From contig NC_049981.1 of assembly GCF_000003815.2 (NCBI RefSeq), positions 6,016,949-6,080,948 of the forward strand: a stretch of 64,000 nt of DNA, given 5' to 3'. This document shows, in pieces, positions 63 to 57,839 of this stretch (positions are counted from its first letter, which is position 1; each line of letters opens with the position of its first letter). Below the pieces are notes generated by a model that had not been told where the DNA came from, made no database searches, and saw only the letters and a list, made by a program, of their open reading frames with translations. This DNA comes from Branchiostoma floridae. Taxonomy: Eukaryota > Chordata > Leptocardii > Amphioxiformes > Branchiostomatidae. The position numbers and the translations under genes are program-made.

Positions 63-1373
63 ATGAGATCGTACGGGCAGTTAATTCAAATTATCTTTTA
101 TTTGTTATTTTTCTGCACGGTGGGCAACGCCCTGCCAACTGGGTGTTATAGACAAGAGACATCTACGATCAGTTGCTTCTCAAGTCCACTTACTGCGTTG
201 CCCAAAGGACTGCCGGCACATACAACCAGCCTCTCTGTCTCCGTTAGCAATTTGGGGCATCTTGCATATTTTCCAGCACTATTAAAACTCGTTTCCCTCA
301 GCTTAAGAGACGACAACATCGAATCTATTGAGTGGCTGGAACTCCGCTCTCTACCGGCGTTGAAGTTTTTAGACCTGTCTGGGAACAAACTGACACACGT
401 GAATTTGGGCGTTGTCATTGAACATCTTTCAAACCTGAGTTTGGTGGATCTGACTAGTAACAGGCTTGCAACCGTCTCAGAAAAAGACTTGGCGCTTCCC
501 TCCTTAGATAGCTTGCTCATCAGCGATAACCCTTTAGCCTGTGACTGTGACTTGCTGTGGTTAGTCAAGAAGATAAGCTGTTTGAAAATATGCACGGGGA
601 TTTTGGCAGCTTGCTGTCGGGAGTGTGAGGCATGTGTTTTCGGCTTTCTTCCGTCTGTTCACGATACTCTGCTGTGTGCGAGCCCAAAGCACATGGAAGG
701 ACTGCCCTTAGCAAGGGCCGATGTACGCCTGACATCCTGCTTGACAAAGTGGCCTGACATGACGGTAGTATGGACTCCATCTCTTGTAGTTGATACAGCT
801 GACACAAGTGCATGGAAAACCCAATCAGCTACATTCTCACACTTGGCTCTAAGCTCGTTAAAAACTCTGCATGGACAAAACAACATTTCTTCAACGAAAT
901 CGACAAAAGTCTCACAAACGGACAGTACATTAAACCTTAGGACCTTACAAATCGTTACCATCTCCGTCGCCAGTTTTGTCGGATTTCTTTTTATCATCGT
1001 TATAACACTGAAGAGTATCATATCGTTCAGAGCTAGCAGTTTGGATCACGATGCTGCTGCTGCTCATAACAACATCATGATGCATCACATCACACCTATT
1101 GGAGATGTACAGAACAACACACTCTTTTCAGTCTGTGACACTAGTAACCAACAAGGTCTGAATCAGATGGATACATGCTTTGGCCAAATAATGCCACCCA
1201 TACATAACACAGCATACAACGTAAACCCAAATGGGGGAATTCTACAACCATGTCAAATAATACCACCCATACAAAACAGAGCTTACGACATAGACCCGAA
1301 TGGAGGGAGACCGGACCAAAGTCAAATGATTCCACCTATAGTGAACACTTTATATACTAGAACACAGAACTAA
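63..1373 (+). CDS. A1: single-exon LRR transmembrane receptor, intact
   Basis: Encodes 436 residues. A signal peptide (about 1-23) precedes an LRRNT-like segment with C27 and C38, about four LRRs (55-150), an LRRCT (157-226) with ten cysteines including a CC-x2-C-x2-C insert, a Ser/Thr-rich stalk (227-295), one membrane helix (about 297-319) and a cytoplasmic tail. The tail has three repeats of the form I-P-P-I-x-N-x-x-Y, with tyrosines at 385, 408 and 431. The frame is open ten codons further upstream, but I chose the ATG at 63 because the M-K/R-S/A-Y start is shared by every paralogue. Expected role, inferred from architecture: a cell-surface recognition receptor; ligand unknown. Upstream control sequence lies outside the window. 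Confidence 0.85.
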   Translation: MRSYGQLIQIIFYLLFFCTVGNALPTGCYRQETSTISCFSSPLTALPKGLPAHTTSLSVSVSNLGHLAYFPALLKLVSLSLRDDNIESIEWLELRSLPALKFLDLSGNKLTHVNLGVVIEHLSNLSLVDLTSNRLATVSEKDLALPSLDSLLISDNPLACDCDLLWLVKKISCLKICTGILAACCRECEACVFGFLPSVHDTLLCASPKHMEGLPLARADVRLTSCLTKWPDMTVVWTPSLVVDTADTSAWKTQSATFSHLALSSLKTLHGQNNISSTKSTKVSQTDSTLNLRTLQIVTISVASFVGFLFIIVITLKSIISFRASSLDHDAAAAHNNIMMHHITPIGDVQNNTLFSVCDTSNQQGLNQMDTCFGQIMPPIHNTAYNVNPNGGILQPCQIIPPIQNRAYDIDPNGGRPDQSQMIPPIVNTLYTRTQN

Positions 1374-5007: not shown

Positions 5008-6465
5008 GATTTGTCGCCAGTTTTTTGGGATTGATTTTTATCGTTGTTATAACAGTCAAGGGTATCATGGCGCTCAGAGCTAACAATTCAGATAGAGATG
5101 CAGCCCCTGCCTTGTCTGCATGAGGGGCTATGCCCTGCCAACTGGCTGTACTAGTTCAGGGACATCTACGATCAGTTGCTACGCAGGTCAATTTACCTCG
5201 TTTCCCAAAGGACTGCCTGCAAATACTACCCGCATGTTTGCCTCCTTCATCAATCTGAGGCGTCTTACATATTTTCCTCTACTTCCAAAACTCGTTTCCC
5301 TCAGCTTGACATTCAACAACATCGAATCGATTTAGTGGCTGGAACTCCGCTCTCTGCAAGCGTTGGAGTATTTTTACCTGTCTAAAAACAAACTGACACA
5401 CGTGAATTTGGGCGTCGTCATTGATCATCTTCCAAACCTGAATTTGGTGGATCTGACGAGTAACAGTCTTGCAACCGTCTCGGAAAAAGAGTTAGCACTC
5501 CCCTTCTTGGATAACGTGCGCATAGGTGATAACCCTTTAGACTGTGGCTGTAGGCTGCTATGGTTAATCAGGAAGATAATCTGTTTGGAAAATGCATTGG
5601 AGCATTTGCGGGTTGCTGTCCTAGGTGCGAGGCATGCGTTCTTCGTGATCTTACTTTTGGGTATGATACTCTAATGTGTGCAAGCCCAAAGCACATGGAA
5701 GGAGTGCCCTTAGCACGTGCTGGTGTAAGCCCGACATCCTGCTTGACAAAACGGTATGACACGACAAAAGTATGGACTCAAGCTCCTTTAAAGACTGGGG
5801 TATCAACGAATCGGTCGTTTTCTGCTGGCCATGCAAATGATAAAGGAAAAGGAACACTGTCTACAGATGGTACAGATTACAAAAATGCATTTACGGACAA
5901 GACAGACACATTCACGCACTTGGATTTTGTCACTTCAGAAAGTGTGCATGGACAAAATACGGTGGAAAGTGACATTTTTACAACAAAAATAACAAATATC
6001 CATAAATTGCACGGTACATTTAAGAATTCACAAATCGTTATCATTTCTGCCGCCAGTCTTTTTGGATTCATTTTTATCGTTGTTATAGCAGTCAAGAGTA
6101 TCGTGGCGCTCAGACCTAACAGTTCAGATAGAGACGCAGCCTCTGCCCAAAACAACATCATGATGCATCACACCAGACCAACTGCTAATGTACAGAACAG
6201 CGTCTTCTTCCCAGTCCGTAACCATGGTACACAACAAGGTCTGAATCAGATGGATACAAGCTTTGGCCAAATAATACCACCCACTCAAAACACAGCATAC
6301 AACGTAAACCCAAATGTAGGGACACTGCAACCGAGACAAATAATACCACCCATACAAAACACCGCATACAACGTTAACCCAACTGTAGGGCCACTGCGAC
6401 CGACATCTCCGAGTCAAATGATTCCACCAATAGTGAACACTTTATATACTGGAACCCCAAACTAA
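5008..6465 (+). pseudogene. D1: LRR receptor pseudogene with chimeric 5' end
   Basis: From 5008 the sequence encodes a membrane helix and start of the tail (G-L-I-F-I-V-V-I-T-V-K). At about 5110 it jumps straight into the signal-peptide end and mature N-terminus of another gene copy (V-C-M-R-G-Y-A-L-P-T-G-C). The reading frame then suffers a nonsense change (GAG to TAG, 5333-5335, at the usual I-E-W) and a one-base loss in an A run (about 5589-5592, inside the LRRCT). The rest is open to 6465 with stalk, membrane helix and three N-x-x-Y tail repeats. There is no start codon or complete signal peptide. Confidence 0.85.
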
Positions 6466-8615: not shown

Positions 8616-10022
8616 ATGAAAGCGTACGGGCAAATCTTCCAAATCCAAATCTTTCTTAGTTGCTTGTTTGTCTGCACGAGGGGCTTTGCCCTACCAACTG
8701 GCTGTACTAGTTCAGGGCCATCTACGATAAGTTGCTACTCAGGTCAATTTACCTCGTTGCCCAAAGGACTGCCTGCAAATACTACCCGCCTGTATGTCTC
8801 CTTTAGCAATCTGAAGCATGTTTCATGTTTTCCATCACTTCCAAAACTCGTTTCCCTCAGCTTGAGATACAACAACATTGAATCGATTGAGTGGCTGGAA
8901 CTCCGCTCTCTGCCGGCGTTGGAGTATTTATACCTGTCTAATAACAAATTGACACACGTGAATTTGGGCGTTGTCGCTAAACATCTTCCAAAGCTTAGTT
9001 TGGTGGATCTGACGAGTAACAGGCTTGCAACCGTCTCGGAGAAAGAACTAGCACTACCCTTTTTGGTTAACGTGCGCATCGGCGATAACCCTTTAGACTG
9101 TGGCTGCGACTTGCTGTGGTTGATGCAAAGGATGAGCTGTATGGAAACATGCAAGGGAACATTTGGAGCTTGCTGTCTTAACTGTGAGGCATGCCTTCTT
9201 CTTGACCTTACGTCTGGTCACGATACTCTGCTGTGTGCAAGCCCAAAGCACATGCAAGGAGTGCCCTTAGCACGTGCTGGTGTAAGCCCGACATCCTGCT
9301 TGACAAAATGGACTGACACGACAGTAGTATGGACTCAAGCTCCTTTACAGACTGGGGTATCAACGAATCGGTCGCTTTCTGCTGGCCATGCAAATGATCA
9401 AAGAAAGGGGACACTGTCTACAGATGGTACAGATTACAAAAATGCATTGACGGCCAAGACAGACACATTCACGCACTTGGATTTTGTCACTTCAGAAAGT
9501 GTGCATGGACAAAATACGGTAGAAAGTGACATATTTACAACAAAAAGGACAAATATCCATCAATCGGACGGTACATTAGAGAATTCACAAATCGTTATCA
9601 TTTCTGCCGCCAGTCTTTTTGGATTCATTTCTATCGTTGTTATAGCAGTCAAGAATATCGTGGTGCTCAGAGCTAACAGCTCAGACAGAGACGCAGCCTC
9701 TGCCCAAAACAACATTATGATGCATCACATCAGACTTACTGGAAATGTACAAAGCAACGCCTTCTTCCCAGTCAGAAACCACGGTACACAACAAGGTCTG
9801 AATCAGATGGACACAAGCTTTGGCCAAATAATACCACCCATACAAAACACCGCATACAACGTTAACCCAAATGTTGGGACACTGCATCCAAGTCAAATAA
9901 TACCACCCATACAAAACACCGCATACAACGTTAACCCAAATGTAGGGACACTGCAACCGACATCTCCGAGTCAAATGATATCACCAATAGTGAACACTTT
10001 ATATACTGGAAGCCCAAACTAA
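8616..10022 (+). CDS. B1: single-exon LRR transmembrane receptor, intact
   Basis: Encodes 468 residues. Signal peptide about 1-25, LRRNT cysteines C30 and C40, about four LRRs (56-150), LRRCT 158-228 with pattern C-x-C-x10-C-x3-C-x6-CC-x2-C-x2-C-x13-C-x20-C, Ser/Thr stalk 229-323, membrane helix about 325-347 and a 121-residue tail. The tail repeats I-I-P-P-I-Q-N-T-A-Y-N-V-N-P twice (Y414, Y437) and ends with a variant carrying N-T-L-Y (Y463). The start is the ATG following CATACAAAA, shared by the family. An extra cysteine at position 71 is not found in B2. Probably a surface recognition receptor; ligand and signalling partner unknown. Confidence 0.85.
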   Translation: MKAYGQIFQIQIFLSCLFVCTRGFALPTGCTSSGPSTISCYSGQFTSLPKGLPANTTRLYVSFSNLKHVSCFPSLPKLVSLSLRYNNIESIEWLELRSLPALEYLYLSNNKLTHVNLGVVAKHLPKLSLVDLTSNRLATVSEKELALPFLVNVRIGDNPLDCGCDLLWLMQRMSCMETCKGTFGACCLNCEACLLLDLTSGHDTLLCASPKHMQGVPLARAGVSPTSCLTKWTDTTVVWTQAPLQTGVSTNRSLSAGHANDQRKGTLSTDGTDYKNALTAKTDTFTHLDFVTSESVHGQNTVESDIFTTKRTNIHQSDGTLENSQIVIISAASLFGFISIVVIAVKNIVVLRANSSDRDAASAQNNIMMHHIRLTGNVQSNAFFPVRNHGTQQGLNQMDTSFGQIIPPIQNTAYNVNPNVGTLHPSQIIPPIQNTAYNVNPNVGTLQPTSPSQMISPIVNTLYTGSPN

Positions 10023-13693: not shown

Positions 13694-16159
13694 GACAATG
13701 ACAATGATGACAATGATCTTTATTTGCATGATCTTGCCCATATGGGCTAAATGCAGTAGTTACATAAAACTTTGCTGTAAAGAATCTTTACAGTGGCAGT
13801 GGGAGAGACAGAACAACTAAGGCTATGCTACACTATAAGTACATCTATCGTTTACAAAATAGTCAAATATGTAATGCTATACTATTCTACAATTTACATG
13901 TCTCTTTTCTCTTCTTGAAACAAGTGTATATGAATTCACAGAGTTTTTGCAGTACAATGTTGTCAGATGATTTCATTATGTATACAAAAAGCTCATCTTT
14001 TACTAACTGTTTAGCTCGTGTATCAAAATTCAGGGCATTAATAAAAGAATTACGTATATCACTATATAACTCACATTCCAATACAAAATGAACTTCATTT
14101 TCAATATCTTTGGCGTTACAAAGTGTACAGATTCTATCACTCGGAGGAGTCCGGTTGTATCTTCCTACTTCTATTTGTAAAGGGTGATCACTAATTCTTA
14201 ATTTAGCCATGGCTCGGCGATGGCTGAAATTATGTATATTTAGGTACTGTTCTCTTTCGTAGGTGTCTTTGAACTTCCTGTACGTTCTTAGTTTGTTTCC
14301 TTGATTTTCCTTTTTTCCATTAGAGTTGAGTTCGGAATAGAAAGTCTGTAGAAATATGTCTTTCAATCTTTGTTTCACTTGCGACTGAGCTGATGGTATA
14401 TTATAGTCTTGGTTCAACAGTAGGTACCCATAACCAGACTCCTCGAGAATCTTACTTACATTTGAAAGCCAACATGGTACCTTACGTCGGTGTAGATCTT
14501 GTTGTACAAGGAGTGCTTGATATTGTAAACTATTTGTTGGTACGTCTCTAGTTAACCTGCTATAATAAGAGTAGAGCCTGCTGCAAGCCTCGATCCGCAA
14601 AGGAAACCTGCCAAGTTCCGCTCTTGTGGCGAGGTTACTAGCATTTCTTCTTACTCCAATGATAGCTTTACAGAATTTCAAATGTGCTTGCTCTAGTGGG
14701 GAATTATCATTTAAACCAGCATTGCCCCACACTTCTGCACCATACAACAATATAGGTACAATACATGCATCAAATAACTTACATTGCAGTGATACTGAGG
14801 GATTATTTTCGCCCAGAGTTGTTCTAATGCTAAACATCGCTCTTAGCGCCTTCTTTTGGAGGGTTTTCATGGCTGTGCTGAAGTTACATCCCGCTGTGAA
14901 TACCACGCCTAAATAACAATATGAGGAGACTACATCTAGGTCTTTGTCTAATAAATAGAATTTAAAGTTTGACAATATTTCTCCTTTTCTATTAAAAATG
15001 ATAATTTTTGTTTTCTTGAGGTTTACTGTTAGTTTCCACTTGCTGCAGTATAGACCGAGAATATTGATTGCATTCTGTAGGCCACGTTGACTTGATGATA
15101 AGATAACAACGTCATCGGCATAAAATAAACTCGATACTTGAGATGAATGGAGAATAGGAGCATCCAGGTCTCCTGTATTGAGATCATTTACTAAATCGCT
15201 AATGTACAGATTAAATAACGAGGGGCTTAATACACAGCCCTGTCTCACGCCGATTTCTATGGGGAAAGTTTCACTCAAGCCTATCTTGGTCTTTACACAA
15301 GCTTCTGATTGATTGTATAAACTATTCATGATATCGAAGAATTTGCCAGAAATGCCTTTTGAGAGAAGTTTGAATAGAAGACCATGATGCCAAACGGAAT
15401 CGAAAGCCTTCGATAGATCAACAAAACAAGCAAAGAGTCGTTTACCGGACTGTGTGTATTTAGAGATTAGGGTTTTCAATATAAATATATTATCTGCTGT
15501 TCTGTATTTTTTTCTGAATCCTGTTTGGTTAGGTTTTAATATTTCGTTTTCTTCCATAAAAGTTGACAATCTTTTGTTAAGGATCGAGCTGAATAATTTT
15601 CCGAGACAGCTTGAGATGGCAATACCCCGATAATTGTTTGGATCATCTTTTCTTCCCGACTTGTGTATTGGGACAATATAGCTTCTCGACCAGTATTGTG
15701 GGAAGGTTCCTGTTTCTAGTACGCTATTAAATAGCTTTGCGAGGGGTCTCAGTAAAAGTATTTTTCCCCCTTTTAACATCTCATTAACTATCATATCTTC
15801 CCCGCTAGCCTTTTTGGTTTTAAGTGCTTGAATCGCAGTGCAAATTTCAGATTCTGTGACGCAATAGTCTAGGGGTCCTTGACTTGTGTTATCTTTTTGT
15901 AAAACCTTTAATTTGTTTAATATTTCTTTCTCGAAATTGTAGTCAAATACCTGTTTCTCTAATCTAGACCTGCTGTGAATGGATTTAAAGTGATCTACCC
16001 ATGTATCTGTTGGTATGACTTCTTGATCTGTTGATTTTTCATTCTTTAGTTTTTTTAGTAGGTTCCAGAACGCTGTTGGGTTTTTGTCCTGCAGATTTTG
16101 TAGTTGTGTTAAAAGATAGTTTTCATGTTCCCTTTTACGTTTTCGAATAAGTTTGTTAG
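13694..16159 (-). mobile_element. 5'-truncated non-LTR retrotransposon in the C1 tail
   Basis: Inserted antisense into the tail-coding part of C1, between two copies of ATAAT (13689-13693 and 16160-16164). The 3' end (left side) reads, on the minus strand, AATAAAGATC followed by ATTGTC repeats. No endonuclease domain is present, so the 5' part was lost on insertion. Clade not assigned; CR1, L2 or I-like are possible. Confidence 0.85.
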
Positions 16160-16187
16160 ATAATACCACCCATACAAAACACCGCAT
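13887..16187 (-). CDS. reverse transcriptase ORF of the LINE
   Basis: 766 codons open. About the first ten (M-R-C-F-V-W-V-V-L-S) are antisense receptor tail, so the ORF is a chance fusion and its true start is missing. The RT fingers/palm motifs are visible: N-N-Y-R-G-I-A-I-S-S, F-V-D-L-S-K-A-F-D-S-V-W, R-Q-G-C-V-L-S-P-S-L-F-N and the catalytic F-Y-A-D-D near residue 360. A C-terminal C-x2-C...H-x4-C knuckle (C-T-L-C-N-A-K...V-H-F-V-L-E-C) follows. Copying of its own RNA at a nicked target is the family function. The frame is undamaged, so the insertion is recent. Confidence 0.85.
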   Translation of the reverse strand: MRCFVWVVLSNKLIRKRKREHENYLLTQLQNLQDKNPTAFWNLLKKLKNEKSTDQEVIPTDTWVDHFKSIHSRSRLEKQVFDYNFEKEILNKLKVLQKDNTSQGPLDYCVTESEICTAIQALKTKKASGEDMIVNEMLKGGKILLLRPLAKLFNSVLETGTFPQYWSRSYIVPIHKSGRKDDPNNYRGIAISSCLGKLFSSILNKRLSTFMEENEILKPNQTGFRKKYRTADNIFILKTLISKYTQSGKRLFACFVDLSKAFDSVWHHGLLFKLLSKGISGKFFDIMNSLYNQSEACVKTKIGLSETFPIEIGVRQGCVLSPSLFNLYISDLVNDLNTGDLDAPILHSSQVSSLFYADDVVILSSSQRGLQNAINILGLYCSKWKLTVNLKKTKIIIFNRKGEILSNFKFYLLDKDLDVVSSYCYLGVVFTAGCNFSTAMKTLQKKALRAMFSIRTTLGENNPSVSLQCKLFDACIVPILLYGAEVWGNAGLNDNSPLEQAHLKFCKAIIGVRRNASNLATRAELGRFPLRIEACSRLYSYYSRLTRDVPTNSLQYQALLVQQDLHRRKVPCWLSNVSKILEESGYGYLLLNQDYNIPSAQSQVKQRLKDIFLQTFYSELNSNGKKENQGNKLRTYRKFKDTYEREQYLNIHNFSHRRAMAKLRISDHPLQIEVGRYNRTPPSDRICTLCNAKDIENEVHFVLECELYSDIRNSFINALNFDTRAKQLVKDELFVYIMKSSDNIVLQKLCEFIYTCFKKRKETCKL

Positions 16188-16776
16188 AGTACGTCAACCA
16201 AAATGCTCGTACACTACAACCAAGATCTCAGAGTCGAATGATTCCACCAATAGTTAACAGTTTATATACTGGAACACAAAAATAATGACACAGTGCTTTT
16301 AGCAATTATTTTGCCTTCAGCAGCGCCCCTCCACCCCACTCCCCTGAAGTCGGAAAACAATTGATCATTGCATCGTTAGAGGAGTTTCCTAACGTAAATT
16401 AGTAGTGACGGATTTTGAATCAAAGAGTTCTCAGCAATTCACAAAACCTTGCAAAGTATGTTTGGCGTTATGCATTAATTGCTTACCACAAATGAACTAT
16501 ACATGTACATGTTTGGCAGTGAAATCTGCAATATACAAAGACAGACAATAGATTTTACTTTTATGGTGGCTAGATCCCGGCTCTACAATTTTTGTAAATG
16601 TTTCTAATAATTCTGAATTAATCACATTATTATTTTTTTCATATTTACTGTACTGTTGCCTTATTCTATGTAAATGTTTTACTGTATATTGTATGTATGT
16701 TCGATGGCACCCGTAGCCAACATCAGCATTGCTGCCTGGAATTCTCTGTTAAACTGTATTGCCTTGTTGCAATTAA

Positions 16777-21440: not shown

Positions 21441-22761
21441 ATGAAATCGTACGGGCAGTTAATTCAAATTATCTTTTATTTGTTATTTTTCTGCACGGTG
21501 GGCAACGCCCTGCCAACTGGGTGTTATAGACAAGAGACATCTACGATCAGTTGCTTCTCAAGTCCACTTACTGCGCTGCCCAAAGGACTGCCGGCACATA
21601 CAACCAGCCTCTCTGTCTCCGTTAGCAATCTGGGGCATCTTGCATATTTTCCAGGACTATCAAAACTCGTTTCCCTCAGCTTAAGAGACGACAACATCGA
21701 ATCTATTGAGTGGATGGAACTCCGCTCTCTACCGGCGTTGAAGTTTTTAGACCTGTCTGGGAACAAACTGACACAATAAAAGTCATGTGAATTTGGGCGT
21801 TGTCATTGAACATATTTCAAACCTGAGTTTGGTGGATCTGACTAGTAACAGGCTTGCAACCGTCTCAGAAAAAGACTTGGCGCTTTCCTCCTTAGATACC
21901 TTGCTCATCAGCGATAACCCTTTAGACTGTGACTGTGACTTGCTGTGGTTAGTCAAGAAGATAACCTGTTTGAAAGTATGCACGGGGATTTTGGCAGCTT
22001 GCTGTCGGGAGTGTGAGGCATGCGTTTTTGGCTTTCTTCCGTCTAGTCACGATACTCTGTTGTGTGCGAGCCCAAAGCACATGGAAGGAGTTCCCTTAGC
22101 AAGGGCCGATGTACGCCTGACATCCTGCTTGACAAAGTGGCCTGACATGACGGTAGTATGGACTCCATCTCTTGTAGTTGATAAAGGTGACACAAGTGCA
22201 TGGAAAACCCAATCAGCTACATTCTCACACTTGGCTCTAAGCTCTTTAGAAACGCTGCATGGACAAAACAACATTTCTTCAACGAAATCGACAAAAGTCT
22301 CACAAACGGACAGTACATTAAACCTTAGGACCTTACAAATCGTTACCATCTCCGTCGCCAGTTTGGTGGGATTTCTTTTTATCGTTGTTATAACAGTGAA
22401 GAGTATCATATCGTTCAGAGCTAGCAGTTTGGATCACGATGCTGCTGCTGCTCATAACAACATCATGACGCATCACATCACACCTATTGGAAATGTACAG
22501 AACAGCACCCTCTTTTCAGTCTGTAACACTAGTAACCAACAAGGTCTGAATCAGATGGATACATGCTTTGACCAAATAATACCACCCATACATAACACAG
22601 CATACAACGTAAACCCAAATGGGGGAATTCTACAACCATGTCAAATAATAACACCCATACAAAACAGAGCTTACGACATAGACCCGAATGGAGGGAGACC
22701 GGACCAAAGTCAAATGATTCCACCTATAGTGAACTTTTTATATACTAGAACACAGAACTAA
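21441..22761 (+). pseudogene. A2: LRR receptor broken by a 10-bp insertion
   Basis: Nearly identical to A1 and A3, but ten extra bases (21776-21785) in the third LRR, at the usual K-L-T-H-V, shift the frame and give TAA at 21777-21779. Downstream the frame is open from about 21787 to 22761: LRRs, ten-cysteine LRRCT, membrane helix and three N-x-x-Y repeats. A single lesion suggests recent inactivation or an assembly error. Confidence 0.85.
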
Positions 22762-26122: not shown

Positions 26123-27392
26123 ATGAAACCGTACTGCCAGTTCATTAAAATCTTTCTTTGTTGGCTGATTGTCTGCATGAGGGGCTATGCCCTGCCAACT
26201 GGCTGTACTAGTCCAGGGACATCTATGATCAGTTGCTACTCGGGTCAATTTACTGCGTTTCCAAACGGTCTACCTCTAAATACTACCCGACTGTATGTCT
26301 TCTTCAGCAACATCTTGCATATTTTCCACCTCTACAAAAACTCGTTTCCCTCAGCTTGAGATACAACAACATCGAATCCATAGAGTGGCTGGAACTTCGC
26401 TCTCTGCCGGCGTTGGCGTTTTTATACCTATCTAATAACAAATTAACACACGTAAATTTGGGCGTCGTCATTGAACATCTTCCAAACCTGAGTTTGGTGG
26501 ATCTGACGAGTAACAGGCTTGCAACCGTCTCGGAAAAAGAGTTGGCGCTTCCCTTCTTGGATATCGTGCGCTTCGGCGATAACCCTTTAGACTGTGGCTG
26601 CAAGCTGCTATGGTTAACCAAGAAGATAAGCTGTTTGGAAAATGCATGGGAGCTTTTGCAGATTGCTTTTTTTTGCTACCCTAATTGTGAGGCATGCGTT
26701 CTTCGTGATTTTACTTTTGGGTACGATACTCTGCTGTGTGCAAGTCCAAATCACATGAAAGGGGTGCCCTTAGCACGTGCTGGTGTAAGCCCGATATCCT
26801 GCTTGACAAAACGGTCTGACACGACAGTATTTTAGATCAAAGAAAGGGGACACTGTCTACAGATGGTACAATTTACAAAAATGCATTGACGGCCAAGACA
26901 GACACACTCACGCACTGGGATTTTGTCACTTCAGAAAGTGTGCATGGACAAAATAGGGTGGAAAGTGACATTTTTACAACAAAAATGACAAATATCCATA
27001 AATCGGACGGTACATTTGAGAATCCACAAATCGTTATCATTTCTGCTGCTAGTCTTTTTGGATTCATTTTTTTCGTTGTTATAATAGTGAAGAGTATCAT
27101 GGCGCTCAGAGGTAACAATTCAAATAGAGACGCAGCCTCTGCCCAAAACAACATCATGATGCAACACATTAGACTTAACAGATATGTACAAAGCAACGCC
27201 TTCTTCCCAGTCTGTAACCATGGTACACAACAAGGTCTGAATCAGATGGATACATGCTTTGGCCAAATGACACCACCCATACAAAACACCGCATACTACG
27301 TAAACCCGAATGTAGGGGCACTGCAACCGAGATCTCAGATTCAAATGATGCCACCAATAATAAATAGTTTATATACTGGAACCCCAAACTAA
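26123..27392 (+). pseudogene. D2: LRR receptor pseudogene, three frame lesions
   Basis: Starts with the family signal peptide (M-K-P-Y-C-Q-F-I-K-I-F-L-C-W-L). A seven-base loss near 26310 in LRR1 shifts the frame. The LRRs and LRRCT continue in the next frame to a stop at 26835. There, about 69 bases of stalk are replaced by five, and the stalk, membrane helix and tail resume in a third frame (26886-27392) with two N-x-x-Y repeats. Inside the LRRCT one A is missing, as in D1, but about ten extra bases in a T-rich stretch restore the frame, replacing several conserved cysteines. Confidence 0.85.
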
Positions 27393-36561: not shown

Positions 36562-37971
36562 ATGAAAGCGTACGGGCATATCTTCCAAATCCAAATCTTT
36601 CTTAGTTGCTTGTTTGTCTGCACGAGGGGCTATGCCCTTCCAACTGGCTGTACTAGTTCAGGGCCATCTACGATAAGTTGCTACTCAGGTCAATTTACCT
36701 CGTTGCCCAAAGGACTGCCTGCAAATACTACCCGCCTGTATGTCTCCTTTAGCAATCTGAAGCATGTTTCATATTTTCCATCACTTCCAAAACTCGTTTC
36801 CCTCAGCTTGAGGTACAACAACATTGAATCGATTGAGTGGCTGGAACTCCGCTCTCTGCCGGCGTTGGAGTATTTATACCTGTCTAATAACAAATTGACA
36901 CACGTGAATTTGGGCGTTGTCGCTAAACATCTTCCAAAGCTTAGTTTGGTGGATCTGACGAGTAACAGGCTTGCAACCGTCTCGGAGAAAGAACTAGCAC
37001 TACTCTTTTTGGTTAACGTGCGCATCGGCAATAACCCTTTAGACTGTGGCTTCGACTTGCTGTGGTTGATGCAAAGGATGAGCTGTATGGAAACATGCAA
37101 GGGAACATTTGGAGCTTGCTGTCTTAAGTGTGAGGCATGCCTTCTTCTTGACCTTACGTCTGGTGACGATACTCTGCTGTGTGCAAGCCCAAACCACATG
37201 GAAGGAGTGCCCTTAGCACGTGCTGGTGTAAGCCCGACATCCTGCTTGACAAAACGGCCTGAGACTACAATGGTATGGACTCAAGCACCTTTACAGGCTG
37301 AAGTATCAACGAATTGGTCGCGTTCTACTGGCCATGCAAAGGATCAAAGAAAAGGGACACTGTCTATAGATGGTACAGATTACAAAAATGCATTGACGGC
37401 CAAGACAGACACATTCATAGCGCACTTGGATTTTGTTACTTTACAAAGTGTGCATGGACTAAATACAATGGGAAATGACATTTCTACAACCCAAATGACA
37501 AATATCCATCAATCGGACGGTACATTAGAGAATTCACAAATCGTTATCATTTCTGCCGCTAGTCTTTTTGGATTCATTTTTATCGTTGTTATAGCAGTCA
37601 AGAGTATCGTGGCGCTCAGAGCTAACAGTTCAGATAGAGACGCAGCCGCTGCCCAAAACAACATTATGATGCATCACATCAGACTTACTGGAAATGTACA
37701 AAGCAACGCCTTCTTCCCAGTCCGTAACCATGGTACACAACAAGGTCTGAATCAGATGGATACAAGCTTTGGCCAAATAATACCACCCATACAAAACACC
37801 GCATACAACGTTAACCCAAATGTTGGGACACTGCATCCAAGTCAAATAATACCACCCATACAAAACACCGCATACAACGTTAACCCAAATGTAGGGACAT
37901 TGCAACCGATATCTCCGAGTCAAATGATTCCACCAATAGTGAACACTTTATATACTGGAAGCCCAAACTAA
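36562..37971 (+). CDS. B2: single-exon LRR transmembrane receptor, intact
   Basis: 469 residues, closely similar to B1. The frame is open 27 codons further upstream, but the ATG at 36562 is the family start. Signal peptide, LRRNT, about four LRRs, LRRCT, stalk, membrane helix (about 326-348) and a tail with two N-T-A-Y and one N-T-L-Y repeat are all present. One LRRCT cysteine is lost: the usual C-G-C-D-L-L-W reads C-G-F-D-L-L-W (residue 164). B1's extra C71 is tyrosine here. The change may leave an unpaired cysteine, so folding may differ. Confidence 0.85.
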   Translation: MKAYGHIFQIQIFLSCLFVCTRGYALPTGCTSSGPSTISCYSGQFTSLPKGLPANTTRLYVSFSNLKHVSYFPSLPKLVSLSLRYNNIESIEWLELRSLPALEYLYLSNNKLTHVNLGVVAKHLPKLSLVDLTSNRLATVSEKELALLFLVNVRIGNNPLDCGFDLLWLMQRMSCMETCKGTFGACCLKCEACLLLDLTSGDDTLLCASPNHMEGVPLARAGVSPTSCLTKRPETTMVWTQAPLQAEVSTNWSRSTGHAKDQRKGTLSIDGTDYKNALTAKTDTFIAHLDFVTLQSVHGLNTMGNDISTTQMTNIHQSDGTLENSQIVIISAASLFGFIFIVVIAVKSIVALRANSSDRDAAAAQNNIMMHHIRLTGNVQSNAFFPVRNHGTQQGLNQMDTSFGQIIPPIQNTAYNVNPNVGTLHPSQIIPPIQNTAYNVNPNVGTLQPISPSQMIPPIVNTLYTGSPN

Positions 37972-39632: not shown

Positions 39633-39799
39633 AGAGTGAGGTAATACTAGTATGTGCGAACTGTCTTTCAAAAGGATATATAGCGTCGTTGCCTTCTAAT
39701 GATTCAATCTCTAACGATCAAATTCTACCTCGACAACAAAAAATATAAACTACCTTGTCATCCCACGTTGTCAGTGTAGGTTAAAATTACCATACACAA

Positions 39800-41149
39800 A
39801 TGAAAGCGTATAAGCAGTTCATTCAAGTCTATATTAGTTGGTTGTTTGCCTGTATGAGGGGCTATGCCCTGCCATCTGGCTGTACAAGTTCAGGGACATT
39901 TGCCATAAGTTGCTACTCAGGTCAATTTACTGCGTTGCCAAACGAACTGCCTGCAAATACTACCCGCCTGTATGTCTCCTTTAGCAATCTGAGTCATATT
40001 GCATATTTTCCACCACTTCAAAACCTAGTTTCCCTCCGATTGAGATACAACAATATAGAATCGATCGAGTGGCTAAAACTCAGCTCTCTGCCTGCGTTGG
40101 GGTTCCTACAACTGTCCAGGAACAAACTGACACACGTGAGTTTGGGTGTCGTCATTGAACATCTTCCAAACCTGAGTTTGGTGCATCTGACGAATACCAG
40201 GCTTGTAACCGTCTCGGAAAAAGAGTTGGCGCTCTCCTTCTTGGATACCGTGCGCATTGGTGATAACCTTTTTAACTGTGGCTGTGACTTGCTGTGGTTG
40301 ATTCAGAAGATTAGCTGTTTGGGAAAATGCAATCGGATATTTGCAACTTGCTGTCCTAAGTGTGAGGCATGCGTTCTACGTGATCTTACCTTTGGGCACG
40401 ATACTCTGCTGTGTGCGAGCCCAGAGCACATGAAAGGAGTCGCCTTAGCAAGTGCTGGTGTCCGGTTGACATCCTGCTTTACAAAACGGTATGACACGAC
40501 ATCAATTTGGACTCAAGCCCCTTTGCAGATTGAAACGTCAACGAATCGGTCGATTTCTACTGGTCATGCAAAGGATCAATTTAAGGCGTCACTGTCTAAA
40601 GATGATACAGATGACTCCAATACAATGACGGCCAAGATAGACACAATCACAAACTCGGATTTTGCCTCTGCAGAAAGTGTGCATGAACCAAATACAGTGA
40701 AAACTGGTATTTTTTACCATTTTCACAACAAAATTTGACGAAACACCGACAATCGGACACCACATTAAAAGATGGGGATTTTTCAAGACATTATTATTTC
40801 AGTTGCCAGTGTTGCGGGATTCATTTTTATTGTTGTTATAACAGTCAACATTAGTATGGCGCTCAGAGCTAACAGTTCAGATAAAGATGCAGCTTCTCAG
40901 CATCACGATACATCACATGAGATTTACCATAAATGTACAAAGTAACGTCTTCTTCCCAGTCTATGATGCTAGTACACAGCCAAGTCTGAATCAAATGGAT
41001 ACATACTTTGGCCAAATAATATAAATACGACCCATACCAAAAAAACGCATAGTACGTCAAGCAAAATGCTCGTACACTACAACCAAGATCTCCGAGTCAA
41101 ATGATGCCACCAATAGTTAACAGTTTAATATACTTGAACACAAAAATAA
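39800..41149 (+). pseudogene. C2: LRR receptor with a frameshift before the membrane helix
   Basis: 312 codons (39800-40738) give a complete signal peptide, LRRs, ten-cysteine LRRCT and stalk. Compared with C1, an extra T near 40733 brings TGA at 40736-40738. The helix (G-F-I-F-I-V-V-I-T-V) and tail remnants follow to about 41149 with further small indels. It could still yield a soluble ectodomain. It provides the empty site for both insertions in C1. Confidence 0.8.
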
Positions 41150-44761: not shown

Positions 44762-46072
44762 ATGAAATCGTACGGGCAGTTAATTCAAATTATCTTTTAT
44801 TTGTTATTTTTCTGCACGGTGGGCAACGCCCTGCCAACTGGGTGTTATAGACAAGAGACATCTACGATCACTTGCTTCTCAAGTCCACTTACTGCGTTGC
44901 CCAAAGGACTGCCGGCACATACAACCAGCCTCTCTGTCTCCGTTAGCAATCTGGGGCATCTTGCGTATTTTCCAGCACTATCAAAACTCGTTTCCCTCAG
45001 CTTAAGAGACGACAACATCGAATCTATTGAGTGGCTGGAACTGCGCTCTCTACCGGCGTTGAAGTTTTTAGACCTGTCTGGGAACAAACTGACACATGTG
45101 AATTTGGGCGTTGTCATTGAACATCTTTCAAACCTGAGTTTGGTGGATCTGACTAGTAACAGGCTTGCAACCGTCTCAGAAAAGGACTTGGCGCTTTCCT
45201 CCTTAGATAGCTTGCTCATCAGCGATAACCCTTTAGCCTGTGACTGTGACTTGCTGTGGTTAGTCAAGAAGATAAGCTGTTTGAAAATATGCACGGGGAT
45301 TTTGGCAGCTTGCTGTCGGGAGTGTGAGGCGTGCGTTTTTGGCTTTCTTCCGTCTAGTCACGATACTCTGCTGTGTGCGAGCCCAAAGCACATGGAAGGA
45401 GTTCCCTTAGCAAGGGCCGATGTACGCCTGACATCCTGCTTGACAAAGTGGCCTGACATGACGGCAGTATGGACTCCATCTCTTGTAGTTGATACAGGTT
45501 TCACAAGTGCATGGAAAACCCAATCAGCTACATTGTCACACTTGGCTCTAAGCTCTTTGGAAACGCTGCATGGACAAAACAACATTTCTTCAACGAAATC
45601 GACAAAATTCTCACAAACGGACAGTACATTAAACCTTAGGACCTTACAAATCGTTACCATCTCTGTCGCCAGTTTTGTGGGATTTCTTTTTATCGTCGTT
45701 ATAACAGTGAAGAGTATCATGTCGTTCAGAGCTAGCAGTTTGGATCACGATGCTGCTGCCGCTCATAACAACATCATGATGCATCACATCAGACCTATTG
45801 GAAATGTACAGAACAACACCCTCTTTTCAGTCTGTAACGCTAGTAACCAACAAGGTCTGAATCAGATGGATACAAGCTTTGGCCAAATAATACCACCCAT
45901 ACATAACACAGCATACAACGTAAACCCAAATGGGGGAATTCTACAACCATGTCAAATAATACCACCCATACAAATCAGAGCTTACGACATAGACCCGAAT
46001 GGAGGGAGACCGGGCCAAAGTCAAATGATTCCACCTATAGTGAACTTTTTATATACTAGAACACAGAACTAA
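44762..46072 (+). CDS. A3: single-exon LRR transmembrane receptor, intact
   Basis: 436 residues, differing from A1 at scattered positions only. Signal peptide, LRRNT, LRRs, ten-cysteine LRRCT, stalk, helix (about 297-319) and tail with N-T-A-Y, I-R-A-Y (N of the motif changed to I) and N-F-L-Y variants. The second and third repeats have therefore drifted compared with A1 (N-R-A-Y, N-T-L-Y). The start was chosen as for A1. Confidence 0.85.
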   Translation: MKSYGQLIQIIFYLLFFCTVGNALPTGCYRQETSTITCFSSPLTALPKGLPAHTTSLSVSVSNLGHLAYFPALSKLVSLSLRDDNIESIEWLELRSLPALKFLDLSGNKLTHVNLGVVIEHLSNLSLVDLTSNRLATVSEKDLALSSLDSLLISDNPLACDCDLLWLVKKISCLKICTGILAACCRECEACVFGFLPSSHDTLLCASPKHMEGVPLARADVRLTSCLTKWPDMTAVWTPSLVVDTGFTSAWKTQSATLSHLALSSLETLHGQNNISSTKSTKFSQTDSTLNLRTLQIVTISVASFVGFLFIVVITVKSIMSFRASSLDHDAAAAHNNIMMHHIRPIGNVQNNTLFSVCNASNQQGLNQMDTSFGQIIPPIHNTAYNVNPNGGILQPCQIIPPIQIRAYDIDPNGGRPGQSQMIPPIVNFLYTRTQN

Positions 46073-48117: not shown

Positions 48118-48280
48118 AGAGTAGTGTGATATGTGTGAACTGTCTTTCAAAGGTGTATAACGTCGTTGCCTTCTACTGATTCAATCTCTAACGATCAATT
48201 TCTAACTCTACAACCAAAAATATAAAACTACCTTGTCATCCCACGTTGTCAGTGTACTAGGTTAACATTTCCGTACACAA

Positions 48281-49174
48281 ATGAAAGCGTATTGGCTGTT
48301 CATTCGAATCATTCTTTGTTGGTTGTTTGTTTGCACGAGGGGCAACACTCTGCCAACTGGCTGTACTAGTCCAGGGACATCTACCATAAGTTGCTACTCA
48401 GGGCAATTTACTGCGTTGCCAAAAGGACTACCTGCAAATACTACCCGCCTGTATGTCTCATTCAGCAATCTGAGGCATCTTGCATATTTTCCACCACTAC
48501 AAAAACTCGTTTCCCTCAGGTTGAGATACAACAACATCGAATCGATTGAGTGGCTGGAACTCCGCTTTTTACCGGCGTTGGAGTACCTACAACTGTCCAG
48601 GAACAAACTGACACACGTGAATTTGGACGTCGTCGTTGAACATCTTCCAAACCTGAGTTTGGTGGATCTGACGAGTAACAGACTTGCAACCGTGTCGGAA
48701 AAAGAGTTAGCACTACCCTTCTTGGATAGAGTGCGAATCGGCGATAACCCTTTAAACTGTGACTGTGACTTGCTGTGGTTAATTCAGAAGACTAGTTGTT
48801 TGAAAGAATGCATGGGAGCATTTGCAGCTTGCTGTCCTAAGTGTGAGGCATGCGTTCTACGTGATGTTTCGTTTGGGTACGATACTCTGCTGTGTGCGAG
48901 CCCACAGCACATGAAAGGAGTGCCCTTAGCGAGTGCTGGTATCCACTTGACATCCTGTTTGACAAAACGGTCTGACACGACAATAATATGGACTCAAGCT
49001 ACTGTACAGACTAAGGCGTCAACTGATCTGTCGTTTTCTGTTGGTTATACAATGGATCAAGAAAAAGTATCACTGTCTAAATATGGTACAGATGACACAA
49101 CTACGAACGCTCGCGATCGGATCTCGCCTCTTCAGAAAGGCTGCATGAACAAAATACAGTGGAAACTGGTGTAG
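48281..49174 (+). CDS. C3: LRR ectodomain gene lacking membrane helix and tail
   Basis: 297 residues: signal peptide (1-24), LRRNT, LRRs, intact ten-cysteine LRRCT and a short stalk. Relative to C1 the stalk frame shifts near codon 275, and a stop follows at 49172-49174. Just after it (about 49205) the sequence joins the C-type 3' flank (matching about 16308), so helix and tail have been deleted. The product would be secreted if made. It may be a pseudogene, but the ectodomain frame is clean. Confidence 0.7.
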   Translation: MKAYWLFIRIILCWLFVCTRGNTLPTGCTSPGTSTISCYSGQFTALPKGLPANTTRLYVSFSNLRHLAYFPPLQKLVSLRLRYNNIESIEWLELRFLPALEYLQLSRNKLTHVNLDVVVEHLPNLSLVDLTSNRLATVSEKELALPFLDRVRIGDNPLNCDCDLLWLIQKTSCLKECMGAFAACCPKCEACVLRDVSFGYDTLLCASPQHMKGVPLASAGIHLTSCLTKRSDTTIIWTQATVQTKASTDLSFSVGYTMDQEKVSLSKYGTDDTTTNARDRISPLQKGCMNKIQWKLV

Positions 49175-51630: not shown

Positions 51631-52264
51631 TGTGTTCATTCCATTAATTATTTTAAATACAAACTCTTCTTACAACAAAAGGTTAATAGTATCCATACAT
51701 ATTGGACAATATTTCTCAGACATAATTCCAAATAAAGTAGTTTGTGACACATATCAAACTATAGGATACTCACACAAAAATTAGTCTGCAATACCTGCAA
51801 TACGTGTCCTATTTTTGTACACTGTTATTGCATATGCAAGACTCAAACTTTTGTACCAAAAGCCACGAGTTGCTGTATTACGTTACAAGAATGCAATCTT
51901 CTATTATTAGAATATGTTGTGTTCATTATGCATATCATTTGACGCCTTTCTCTTATCATTTCACGTCAAAGCAATTCCTTCCAAGGGTCCTGTTTTTTGG
52001 TAAGAGGTGCATTTATTTCCGTGTAAAAAGTTGACATTCAAGCTTTACGAAAAGTGAACTCCCTTTGAGGAAGAAGACTCCCAGCGAGCAAGAGCTACCT
52101 CTGTCTTCTCAAGTATCAACAAGTTGGCTTTCTCAATTGCAGCAGCGCTGAAGAACCGGAAAAACCAAAGGTCTGTAATTTTAGGAAGCATTGTCTTGAT
52201 AAGGATACCTGAGAATTTGCCCTGTTACATCATCAATATCTTACATACTAGTATACCTGCCACC

Positions 52265-53501
52265 ATGATTTGCAAACGTCGTCGAAACCGGGGTAAACCA
52301 AGACGAAAGAGCAAGTTCTTCTTCATACCTATCATCCTACTCTGCGTTATGCCTTGTATTGGGAACCAGATCAGTGGCTGCAAAAATGCAGAGACAAGAA
52401 ACAGGAAGCCGGTGGTCGTTTGTACGTTTAAACGACTTAACTTAAGCCATTTTCCTGTGGGGCTACCAGCAAACGTATCTCGATTACATGTCTCCTTCAA
52501 CGACTTAAGTCACCTCACACGTATTCCGTCTCTTTCTAATTTGGCCCATCTGGATGTCAGATTCAATCATATTAAAACGATCTCCTGGATGTCACTCAAA
52601 AATTTACCATCCTTATCCCATCTCTACTTGTCCTTCAACAGAATAACAAACGTGAACTTGGGTGACGTCATGAAATACCTCACTAAACTGCAGTTCGTAG
52701 GTCTCTCAAACAACATGATCGCATCTGTATCTGTAAACGAGTTAGGACTTTCTAATATATTGATGCAGATAGATATTAACCAGAACCCGTTTCATTGTGA
52801 TTGCGCGATGCTGTGGCTGATCAACAAGACCAAATGTTTACAAAGGTGTACGGCTGCGTTTTCGTCTTGCTGCTCTCAATGTGATGCTTGTTTTCTGGTG
52901 CCTTGGCTTAGCCTGACGCGTCTTGCGTGTGAAAGTCCGGGATCCCATAGACACAAGGGGACTCCCTTTATCACAATTAGATCTAACTCAGAAGACGTGT
53001 GAAGACAACACTACCACAGTAAATGCACAAACGAAATCTCTTCCTGTGACAATTGCAACTTTTTCTTTTGATTATGAACGGACCTACGCAACCAAAATTA
53101 CCAATTTGTTTCGAGTTCAAGGTAAGGATGAAGGCATAACTCTTCCCGGAACTAAGGCAGGAAAAAACATATACCAAAATACTACGATCGTGTTAACGGC
53201 AAAGAAAGGAACAAAAGTTAAAATTGCTTTACACATGTTAACTTTCACGTCAGTAGGTTTGATGGTGCTGCCTTTTATGTACGTCTGTGCGAAAACATTA
53301 ATAAAGACACTCCAGTCTCGAATCTCTGACGAAAAAGGCAATTCTACGGTTTCCTATGACACCAGACTGCACCATGTTTCTCTCTCCTCCTCCAACACCA
53401 CACACTATGCCGCCAGCGACGCAGGGATACAGCAACTACCTATTACCGGCGATGATCTTAACTCTACCGGGGCTTCAGACCCGGGCTCCTCGGTGCTGTA
53501 A
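52265..53501 (+). pseudogene. E1: diverged LRR receptor gene with one frameshift
   Basis: The ATG at 52265 sits in a good context (GCCACCATGA). A basic N-terminus (R/K-rich, 4-16) precedes a hydrophobic signal (about 18-32), then LRRNT, about four LRRs and an LRRCT with C-x-C-x10-C-x3-C-x6-CC-x2-C-x2-C-x12-C. After C-E-S-P (about 52940) the frame slips by one base. The next frame carries the last LRRCT cysteine (Q-K-T-C, 52998-53000), stalk, membrane helix (about 53220-53300) and tail to 53501. The tail keeps one N-T-T-H-Y where paralogues have N-T-A-Y. A single shift could be an assembly error; otherwise it is a young pseudogene. Confidence 0.75.
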
Positions 53502-55372: not shown

Positions 55373-55845
55373 TAACATGTAATAAATAGGAGTACCTTAT
55401 ACTTTACGTAATACTACTGAATACTGAACCAGAAAGTGTGTAGAGACACACTATCATTGTCTGTTTTAACATCATGTAATGAATAGGAGTACCTTATACT
55501 TTACGTAATACTACTGAATCGGAAAGTGTGTAGAGACACACTATCATTGTCTGTTTTAACATCATGTAATAAATAGGAGTACCTTATACTTAACGACATC
55601 ATCATCATCATGTAATAAATAGGAGTACCTTATACTTAACGTAATACTACTGAATCCGAAAGTGTGTAGAGACACACTATCATTGTCTGTTTTAACATCA
55701 TGTAATAAATAGGAGTACCTTATACTTTACGTAATACTACGAATCAAAAAGTATGTAGAGACACACTATCATTGTCTGTCTTAACATCATGTAATGAATA
55801 GGATTACCTTATACTTTACGTAATACTACTGAATCAGAAAGTTAA
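55372..55845. repeat. tandem repeat, about 91-bp unit, about five copies
   Basis: The unit contains AATAGGAGTACCTTATACTT and the small hairpin GTGTGTAGAGACACAC. One copy (about 55560-55600) is cut short and followed by a CATCAT run. It lies between the convergent E1 and E2. Confidence 0.85.
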
Positions 55846-56097: not shown

Positions 56098-57444
56098 TCA
56101 AGGAATTTCCTCATATTCCTGTACTGTGTTTCCTATTGGCGTTAAACTTCGAGAAACTTGGTGTGAAATTGACGATTGTGATTTAGCTGGTTCTGCGCTT
56201 CTACCATATGCAGTGTCTTGTATTGGCGGGACCATTTCAAATGTACTGACTCGAGGTAGAGATAGGATGTCAGAAGAACCGGACAGTTTGTGTAGATGGC
56301 TGTTTCTAATGTAGGCAGTGTTTGCTAGAGGAGGTATGATAGGATGCATCCTCATATTTGTTTGGGCGGTAGTGACATCGTTGTTGTCTTCCGAGCTGCA
56401 ACATCGGTGCTTCCAAAGGATTTTTATAGCCACAGCTGAAACCAAACTTAGCAGCAACGGAACAGCTAAAGCGGTTGTCACTGCGAGCCAGATTAGAGTA
56501 TGTGACTTACTGTTCTTCCTTTGAAAAACATTTGTCGATTTAGCCGTTGTAGTCGAGGACACAATTGTGTCTTTACGGGTTTTCGTAAGATGAGTGCCAT
56601 TCTGAAGAAGTATAGTATATGTATCATGATTTTTATGTACTTTATAAAAATATGAGCTGGTTCCTGCAAAGTTTTCAGGTGCCGATGTTTGTACATATGT
56701 GGTAGCAGTTGTGTCTTTCGCGCATGGTATCTGAGAACTAGCGACATTTCTAAAGGAAAGCCCTTTAAGATTTGTTGGACTGGCACAAGCAAAGCCGTTC
56801 ATAATTAAATGGGAATTAAGAAAACAACTATCACACCGAAGGCAACACCCCGTATGTCTTCCTTTGCATCCTTCCATACACTGAATACTGCTGATGAGCC
56901 ATAATAGTCTACAATCGCAGCTAAATGGGTTGTTCTTTAGGAGTGCCTGGTTCAAGAAAGGAAGCCCTAAACCGCGTTGAGAAAGCGAGGCTATCATGTT
57001 GTTTGATAGCTCTACGTACCGTAGTTTTGGAAGTTGCTTGATGGCTATACCTAGATTCACGTGTGCAATTCTGTTGAAGGACAAGTATAAATACGTTAAG
57101 GACGGCAGATTCCTAAGTTCTATCCAAGAAACGGTTGCGATTCGGTTGGACTTTAATTTCAAGGAGACTAGTTTATCAAGTGGAGGGATGTTGGTAAGGT
57201 TCTCGATATCGTTAAATGAGGCGTCCAAACGAATGACTTCAGTATGCAACGCAGGAAGGTCTCTTAACCTAAGACTTTTAAAGTTGCAAGAAACATAACA
57301 TGTCTGATTTGTTAGGCAGCTTCTTTCGCAGCCTACAAGATGTTCTCCGTGGCAAGGCGGTGCCAAGACTAGAATAAGGAGTACAGGCAGAAAGTAGCAG
57401 CTTCTTGCTGTTTGGTCCTCCAAACTCTGACGTCCTGGAATCAT
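56098..57444 (-). CDS. E2: diverged single-exon LRR transmembrane receptor, intact
   Basis: 448 residues from the ATG at 57444 (context AACATGA). The frame is open 27 codons further upstream and an ATG five codons earlier is an alternative. Signal peptide about 1-33, LRRNT with C39, C43, C49 and C53, about four LRRs (68-165), LRRCT 173-241 with ten cysteines in the family spacing (C-x-C-x10-C-x3-C-x6-CC-x2-C-x2-C-x12-C-x20-C), stalk, membrane helix about 316-342 and a 106-residue tail. The tail has I-I-P-P-L-A-N-T-A-Y (Y378), M-V-P-P-I-Q-D-T-A-Y (Y413) and a worn third unit T-P-I-G-N-T...E-Y. Elsewhere it is far diverged from the array, so these shared parts are probably under constraint. Convergent with E1. 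Confidence 0.85.
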   Translation of the reverse strand: MIPGRQSLEDQTARSCYFLPVLLILVLAPPCHGEHLVGCERSCLTNQTCYVSCNFKSLRLRDLPALHTEVIRLDASFNDIENLTNIPPLDKLVSLKLKSNRIATVSWIELRNLPSLTYLYLSFNRIAHVNLGIAIKQLPKLRYVELSNNMIASLSQRGLGLPFLNQALLKNNPFSCDCRLLWLISSIQCMEGCKGRHTGCCLRCDSCFLNSHLIMNGFACASPTNLKGLSFRNVASSQIPCAKDTTATTYVQTSAPENFAGTSSYFYKVHKNHDTYTILLQNGTHLTKTRKDTIVSSTTTAKSTNVFQRKNSKSHTLIWLAVTTALAVPLLLSLVSAVAIKILWKHRCCSSEDNNDVTTAQTNMRMHPIIPPLANTAYIRNSHLHKLSGSSDILSLPRVSTFEMVPPIQDTAYGRSAEPAKSQSSISHQVSRSLTPIGNTVQEYEEIP

Positions 57445-57839
57445 GTTGATTTCGAACATGTAGATCTGCAAACATATCAGAGAGTAAATTAAGTAAACTG
57501 GGCAATCTGAATAAGGGCAAAACATGGCTTTTGGTTAGTAGTGCAATGGCTCGTTTATTCGGCTAAGCACTTCTTATAACCCCTACTCTTCGTGTGGTGT
57601 GTGTTTTGTCGTATAGAAATATCATATTACAAACATAATCTACCGTTATTTGAAAAACTTACAGCCTAAAAATAAACACGCCCTAATGTGCATCATGGTG
57701 CGGCGATCAAGGATAGAAATTCATATTGTAAGATACGCCTAATAGCAATCACTTACAACAGTGATTCATGATTTTTGAAACGGTCATGTTTCAGACATCA
57801 TGACCCTTGATCTTTCGTCAGTGACACTGTATAGACCAA

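Follow-up and report, generated by a model that had tools for sequence, protein, structure and literature searches.

Receptors that direct engulfment and immune signaling use tyrosine sites of a kind that docks PTB domains. The engulfment receptors CED-1, Draper and MEGF10 have an EGF-type ectodomain, CD200R is an Ig-type receptor, and true VLRs are defined by somatic assembly. PTB domains are described as reading the residues N-terminal to the tyrosine (PMC3507883), with residues -7 to -3 of the bound peptide pairing with strand beta-5 (PMC4985636), and the ELM consensus LIG_PTB_Apo_2 is given as x[ILVMFY]xNxx[FY]x (PMC12102759). In the CED-1 tail, the PTB domain of CED-6/GULP is reported to bind FQNPLY (PMC11228867). 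CD200R is reported to carry out inhibitory signaling without a canonical ITIM, via an NxxY motif and Dok2, and in species other than mammals the Pro at -2 of this motif is usually replaced by Val, Ser or Thr (PMC8007030).

For lancelets, 948 LRR-only gene models have been counted (cited in PMC4731796), and the sole LRR receptor tail that we found studied is that of BbLcLRR from Branchiostoma belcheri, which was interpreted as ITIM-based: three tyrosines of its tail are reported to be phosphorylated by Lck, and the receptor bound SHIP1 and, to a lesser extent, SHP1/2 in Jurkat cells (PMC8211107). Another LRR receptor, FrLRR, is described as acting via Grb2 and is predicted to be GPI-anchored (PMC10199209). 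The motif strings discussed below (PPIQNTAY, PPIENTAY, PPIVNTLY, PPILNTLY and PPLANTAY) were not found in the literature searched, and among articles joining NPXY with Branchiostoma or amphioxus, titles and the beginnings of abstracts mentioned nothing on these receptors.

Architecture and kinship of the divergent receptor gene E2

We analyzed a 64,000-nucleotide stretch of the Branchiostoma floridae genome (hereafter the window), which holds an array of LRR receptor genes and a divergent relative on the minus strand, E2, with the following features:

56098..57459, minus strand: E2 coding sequence, a single open frame of 453 aa with LRR ectodomain, stalk, transmembrane helix and tail
56932..57327, minus strand: LRRNT and leucine-rich repeats (Pfam LRR_8, 6.8e-10; AlphaFold pLDDT mostly >90)
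56722..56931, minus strand: LRRCT cap with CC-x2-C-x2-C, from invariant cysteines and the AlphaFold model
56497..56721, minus strand: Thr/Ser-rich stalk, poorly conserved (residues 248-318, pLDDT <50)
56416..56496, minus strand: predicted transmembrane helix (hydropathy; model helix 320-354)
56311..56334, minus strand: motif copy 1, PPLANTAY, which fits the PTB-ligand consensus
56206..56229, minus strand: motif copy 2, PPIQDTAY, with Asp for Asn at -3, which fails the strict PTB consensus
56119..56142, minus strand: TPIGNTVQ, a claimed worn third copy, 4/8 identical, like ordinary tail
56098..56115, minus strand: C-terminal tyrosine box, YEEIP followed by the stop codon, SH2-type, recurring in unlinked relatives

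An acceptor-like TTTGCAG lies immediately upstream of the start, from which we infer that E2 may be spliced at its 5' end. The ectodomain type of CED-1, Draper and MEGF10 was not found in E2, since only LRR families pass their Pfam cut-offs. LRRNT, LRRs and LRRCT with their cysteine caps are all present, as in the LRR fold of the lancelet VLR-like protein Bf66946 (PDB 4xsq; PMC4731796), which E2 matches at 3.9e-9; the words transmembrane, cytoplasmic and GPI are absent from the main text of the report on that protein. Across 30 aligned relatives, six cysteines of the E2 LRRCT are invariant (C181, C194, C205, C209, C225 and C246) and two more, C183 and C198, are nearly so. In an AlphaFold model built on 30 family sequences, the LRR ectodomain is confident (pLDDT >=90 at 170 of 453 residues) and the tail (358-453), like the stalk, falls below 50, which is consistent with disorder in both segments. 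The tail holds three tyrosines, one in each of the two motif copies and one in the C-terminal box. Downstream of E2, at 55422-55842 of the window, lies a tandem repeat with units of ~90 and ~136 bp.

The original prediction described E2 as differing from the array through most of its length, and the measured identities to four array genes of the window (38-42% in the LRR region, 23-29% in the stalk) agree with this. To place E2 among its relatives, 59 ORFs were kept from the genome search, leaving aside ORFs <300 aa, ORFs lacking an LRR pattern and any relatives outside the fetched stretches; 51 of these have a transmembrane score >=1.8 and provide the 50 unique tails analyzed below. Two further loci, L054 and L055, enter none of the 50-tail, 59-ORF or tree counts. 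A tree of 53 of the 59 ORFs (four were skipped and two removed by a length filter) joins E2 to its neighbor E1, L002, L010 and the C12 cluster and separates it from the C3 array; this fork has a support of 81/78 and comes with a long-branch warning.

Several neighbors in the window are irregular. E1 (52058-53501, plus strand) has its LRR part and its transmembrane and tail part in different, overlapping frames (around 52917-53002), perhaps as a decaying gene, through an intron or through an assembly indel, and its tail is without the motif in the window. Three array genes on the plus strand stop before a transmembrane segment (11492-12475, 39785-40738 and 48266-49174). Downstream of the first of these, 12470-13371 is a repeat of 4699-3836 (reversed, 82%), beyond which a tail remnant lies at 13450-13693; this arrangement suggests an insertion. 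Beside the remnant, a 768-aa open frame (13887-16193, minus strand) resembles a LINE-type reverse transcriptase on visual inspection, and just past it a motif copy, PPIVNSLY, stands at 16244-16267.

Motif copies, gene conversion and codon constraint

Both motif copies of E2 lie after the transmembrane helix, and re-translation reproduced their coordinates and letters. Compared with all 8-mers of the four window array tails, they reach 6/8 and 7/8, and no 8-mer of the E2 stalk exceeds 5/8 against the array stalks. Among 3000 shuffled E2 tails, the best 8-mer reached >=6/8 in 58 and 7/8 in 3; two non-overlapping 8-mers at >=6/8 occurred in one of 1500 shuffles. The Asp at -3 of copy 2 is the sole such case among 36 LRR-locus matches of PP[I/L]x[N/D]TAY, at what is the most conserved position of the motif besides the tyrosine. 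The worn third copy that had also been proposed for E2 does not hold: TPIGNTVQ agrees at 4/8 positions, a level also reached by 24 of the 98 tail 8-mers and hence not separable from ordinary tail, and the adjacent tyrosine belongs to the C-terminal box. As judged from the sequence, an SH2-type box is the better reading of this third element. The copies in the array, each a match to one of the DNA patterns searched in the genome, are:

1194..1217, plus strand: PPIHNTAY
1332..1355, plus strand: PPIVNTLY
6346..6369, plus strand: PPIQNTAY
6424..6447, plus strand: PPIVNTLY
9834..9857, plus strand: PPIQNTAY
9903..9926, plus strand: PPIQNTAY
22582..22605, plus strand: PPIHNTAY
27273..27296, plus strand: PPIQNTAY
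27351..27374, plus strand: PPIINSLY
37783..37806, plus strand: PPIQNTAY
37852..37875, plus strand: PPIQNTAY
37930..37953, plus strand: PPIVNTLY
45893..45916, plus strand: PPIHNTAY

Gene conversion covering the tail, which could account for such identity without selection, was considered as its source and excluded. When the window was compared with itself by blastn (E up to 1e-10), nothing in the array matched the E2 tail at the DNA level, and the only non-self match of E2 was one of 171 bp at 70% between the LRR regions of E2 and E1. Motif copies were then compared singly, since global alignment mis-paired the repeat copies, and against 8 of 9 array copies, those sharing >=5/8 residues. Third positions of matching motif codons agree between E2 and the array copies at 17/46 (0.37) and 23/50 (0.46) for the two E2 copies, vs 172/236 (0.73) among the array copies themselves. 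Fourfold-site agreement over the whole protein between E2 and the same four genes is 0.33-0.40, a measure that is not quite the same as the motif third positions. Silent sites in the motif are thus about as diverged as the rest of E2, and together with the lack of a DNA match in the tail this excludes copying as the cause. The claim that the motif is kept in E2 against a diverged background therefore stands.

Codon constraint was estimated as pN/pS with all pairs pooled, the motif class comprising each column where any gene has the motif. In 13 array-type genes, motif columns gave 0.18 (site bootstrap 0.03-0.56), other tail sites 0.46 (0.36-0.59), the stalk 0.78 (0.63-1.01) and the LRRs 0.49 (0.37-0.62). 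In the five C12 genes, the corresponding values were 0.26 (0.11-0.56), 0.81 (0.60-1.12), 1.13 (0.59-2.63) and 0.41. Defining the class by majority columns, which leaves a half-decayed middle copy outside it, gave 0.17 for the array and left the C12 value unchanged. In both clusters, the motif columns have lower values than the stalk and the other tail sites. Since the array motif interval overlaps those of other tail sites and of the LRRs, the estimates pool all pairs and paralogues may have conversion events in common, we regard this evidence for purifying selection on the motif columns as good but not overwhelming.

It could still be argued that the motif has no function and that its similarity is what remains of common ancestry, or a product of gene conversion. 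The array tails are alike, repeat copies may homogenize, pS is 0.20 in the array motif columns vs 0.33 in the rest of the tail, and certain array copies are decaying (PPIQNRAY, PPIQIRAY and PPIVNFLY). Against this stand the diverged silent sites and unmatched tail of E2, the low pN/pS in two clusters, and the recurrence of the motif in frame with an LRR ectodomain at loci on C3, C9, C12, C14 and C18, as well as near LRR matches on C11 and C13. The argument is largely refuted already, and we give it very little credence. E2 had been put forward as the best evidence that the motif is functional; that role passes to codon constraint and to recurrence across the genome, which are stronger.

Genome-wide spread and candidate class of the motif

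The 513-Mb assembly was searched with the E2 protein, which gave at least 94 matches, and with two DNA patterns. The pattern PP[I/L]x[N/D]TAY has 40 matches (reversed control, 2), of which 35 lie <=3 kb from an LRR match and another, at 3.7 kb, sits in an array gene of the window. Thus 36/40 fall inside LRR-receptor sequence or no more than 10 kb from it; one LRR-locus match (C12:11411503) has a stop codon inside the motif. The remaining four were examined as a possible new carrier and set aside: those on C7 are brief repeated units flanked by stops, the last of which may be coding, and on C5 the match lies in stop-rich sequence. For PPIxN[T/S]LY, 31 of 40 matches (reversed control, 6) lie <=3 kb from an LRR match and six more at 3.4-9.4 kb (one in the window, five on C18), for a total of 37/40 inside such receptor sequence or no more than 10 kb from it; of the three farther off, one is on C10 and two, on C18 at 4.56 Mb, are tail-like frames. 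Sequence <=3 kb from LRR matches makes up no more than 0.13% of the assembly. The motif is thus confined for the most part to the LRR receptor family, in which it is spread over several chromosomes. Nearness does not amount to membership at L035, L053, L056 and L057 (C11, C18), where the motif stands in short frames (SQI[VT]PPIxNSLY...) separate from any LRR frame seen, an arrangement that suggests a separate tail exon.

Within the tails, constraint lies upstream of the tyrosine. The 29 PP-type tails, which were chosen by a P..N..Y pattern that favors P at -6 and N/D/S at -3, share PP at -7/-6, Ile at -5, Asn at -3 and Ala, Leu or Ile at -1, with little at +1 to +4; information over their tyrosine windows is 1.0-1.4 bits at -7, -6, -5 and -3 and 0.29-0.52 at +1 to +4. 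Asn occupies -3 at 101/145 tail tyrosines of this set (2000 shuffles: mean 13.9, max 25) and at 13/57 in the 22 other LRR-transmembrane tails (shuffle mean 4.0, max 11). Over the 50 tails, the ELM PTB consensus has 79 matches in 33 tails (1000 shuffles: mean 6.2, max 13). As many of the tails nearly duplicate one another, these counts are not independent. Motifs of the vertebrate immunoreceptor type were not enriched in the same 50 tails: ITIM ([ILVS]xYxx[LVI]) had 3 matches in 2 tails vs a shuffle mean of 8.9, with none in E2, ITSM (TxYxx[VI]) 0 vs 2.4, YxN 19 vs 18.3 and YxxM 1 vs 4.7; these readings of the PP motif were dropped.

Constraint N-terminal to the tyrosine points to PTB rather than SH2 recognition, and the best reading of the motif is as NXXY-class candidate PTB docking sites, joined in some members by a C-terminal SH2-type tyrosine. 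Like PTB ligands of the NPXY/NXXY kind, the family motif, E2 copy 1 included, has a hydrophobic residue at -5, Asn at -3, Tyr at 0 and N-terminal constraint; it differs from them in carrying Thr/Ser rather than Pro at -2, in its conserved PP at -7/-6 and in having up to several copies per tail. Canonical NPXY also occurs in relatives (FPNPVY, FQNPVY and ITNPVY), and the single tail of L054 combines FQNPVY with PPIQNVSY, PPIANSLY and PPIQNVCY. The FQNPLY of CED-1 thus resembles the FQNPVY in the single-pass receptor tails of L046 and L054, and E2 has no FxNPxY. The lancelet family differs from CED-1 in its LRR ectodomain and in having PPIxNTAY in place of NPXY in most motif-bearing tails, and the link to engulfment is an analogy. 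The non-Pro -2 of the lancelet motif is shared with the NxxY of CD200R, which has one such site; no sequence kinship is claimed.

Proposed docking model and rival readings

We think it probable that PP-[I/L]-x-N-[T/S]-[A/L]-Y is an NXXY-class PTB docking site in the disordered tail of single-pass lancelet LRR receptors. Once the LRR ectodomain has bound its ligand, a PTB adaptor of the CED-6/GULP, Shc or Dok type would be brought to the NXXY sites, whether or not a Src-family kinase phosphorylates them, and some members, E2 included, would offer one extra SH2-type site in a Yxx[I/V][P/Q] box ending at the stop. The output could be engulfment or endocytosis, or adaptor-mediated signaling, possibly inhibitory; ectodomain and stalk would diversify while the tail retains constant sockets. 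E2 would contribute one intact site, one altered site (Asp at -3) and the C-terminal box. Some features fit this proposal less well: the prolines at -7/-6 lack a backbone NH and suit strand pairing at -7 to -3 poorly, and the conserved Thr/Ser at -2 is not required by a general PTB ligand. E2 by itself would not establish the class, given the Asp at -3 and a single strict consensus match (copy 1), which 5.3% of shuffled E2 tails equal.

Other recognition domains could account for parts of the pattern. The tyrosine might instead be an ITIM-like or other SH2 docking site that recruits SHP/SHIP phosphatases after phosphorylation by a Src-family kinase, as reported for BbLcLRR, whose phosphorylation by Lck and binding of SHIP1 set a precedent among lancelets; the YEEIP box does agree with an SH2 site. 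The residues after the tyrosine of the PP motif vary too much for this (IRN, GRS, NVN, HRN, TGS, GEC), and the lack of enrichment of SH2-type motifs noted above also speaks against it; we consider it unlikely. BbLcLRR does have something in common with the family, both being lancelet LRR receptors with tail tyrosines, and its HDYSEV resembles the ends HDYETVP (L010) and HDYEEIQ (L008). It differs in that its reported motifs are ITIM-like, not NXXY, and in having a WSC domain (PMC8211107), a comparison made with its published description (sequence accession MW390887). About equally improbable is that the motif serves mainly in receptor uptake and turnover rather than signaling, as an NPXY-class endocytic sorting signal recognized by Dab2/ARH-type adaptors. 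NPXY is described mostly in trafficking (PMC8007030), but multiple copies per tail, the SH2-type C-terminal tyrosine and an RxLPxLP element in some tails suggest a signaling assembly, and this possibility overlaps with PTB docking. A proline-led ligand of SH3, WW or EVH1 domains with an incidental tyrosine would explain why, among 125 unique tail-tyrosine windows of PP-type tails, 65 have P at -7 and 64 have it at -6; yet Asn -3 and Ile -5 are as informative as PP, the spacing does not fit a WW-type PPxY, and relatives keep NxxY without PP (FQNPVY, ITNPVY), which leaves this explanation with hardly any weight.

PTB docking remains the reading that we favor. In a bolder and more tentative form, which we hold to be possible but on balance doubtful, a large, fast-diversifying lancelet LRR family would use a fixed, PTB-read tail code instead of the ITIM/ITAM-SH2 code of vertebrate immunoreceptors. 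Its tandem PP-hydrophobic-x-N-T-x-Y sockets would derive from, or alternate with, a CED-1-like FxNPxY and in some members be capped by one YxxIP SH2 site at the stop. E2 would then be a divergent receptor of the family that makes do with a single PTB socket plus its C-terminal box. Should the tail code shared by this family be PTB-based, it would link a diversified chordate recognition family to conserved engulfment or Dok/Shc adaptors, and the motif would be a sequence signature for finding receptor partners.

Boxes like that of E2 occur at the same distance from the stop in four relatives: YEEIQ (L008, C12), YETVP (L010, C18), YEYVP (L046, C3 at 34 Mb) and YNYIP (L054, C9). Tails ending in Yxx[IV][PQ] number 4 of 50 (shuffles: mean 0.02, max 2), a pattern that was chosen after seeing the tails; the narrower Src-type Y[ED][EDN][IVL], sought anywhere in the 50 tails, is not enriched (2 vs a mean of 0.8, max 5). 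The RxLPxLP element, which we take from its consensus to be an SH3-type site, is present in 4 of 50 tails (L003, L004, L010 and L046; shuffles, max 1), L003 and L004 being near-copies. A tyrosine-repeat tail of a different build is found in other LRR-transmembrane proteins: L037, L039 and L040 (C18) and L048 (C7) carry many tandem N-x-[I/V/L]-Y-S-x-E-E-D-like repeats, with YENPTGAL units in L039, L040 and L048, and the tail of L048 starts with a run of ~20 NHGHQPV-like units.
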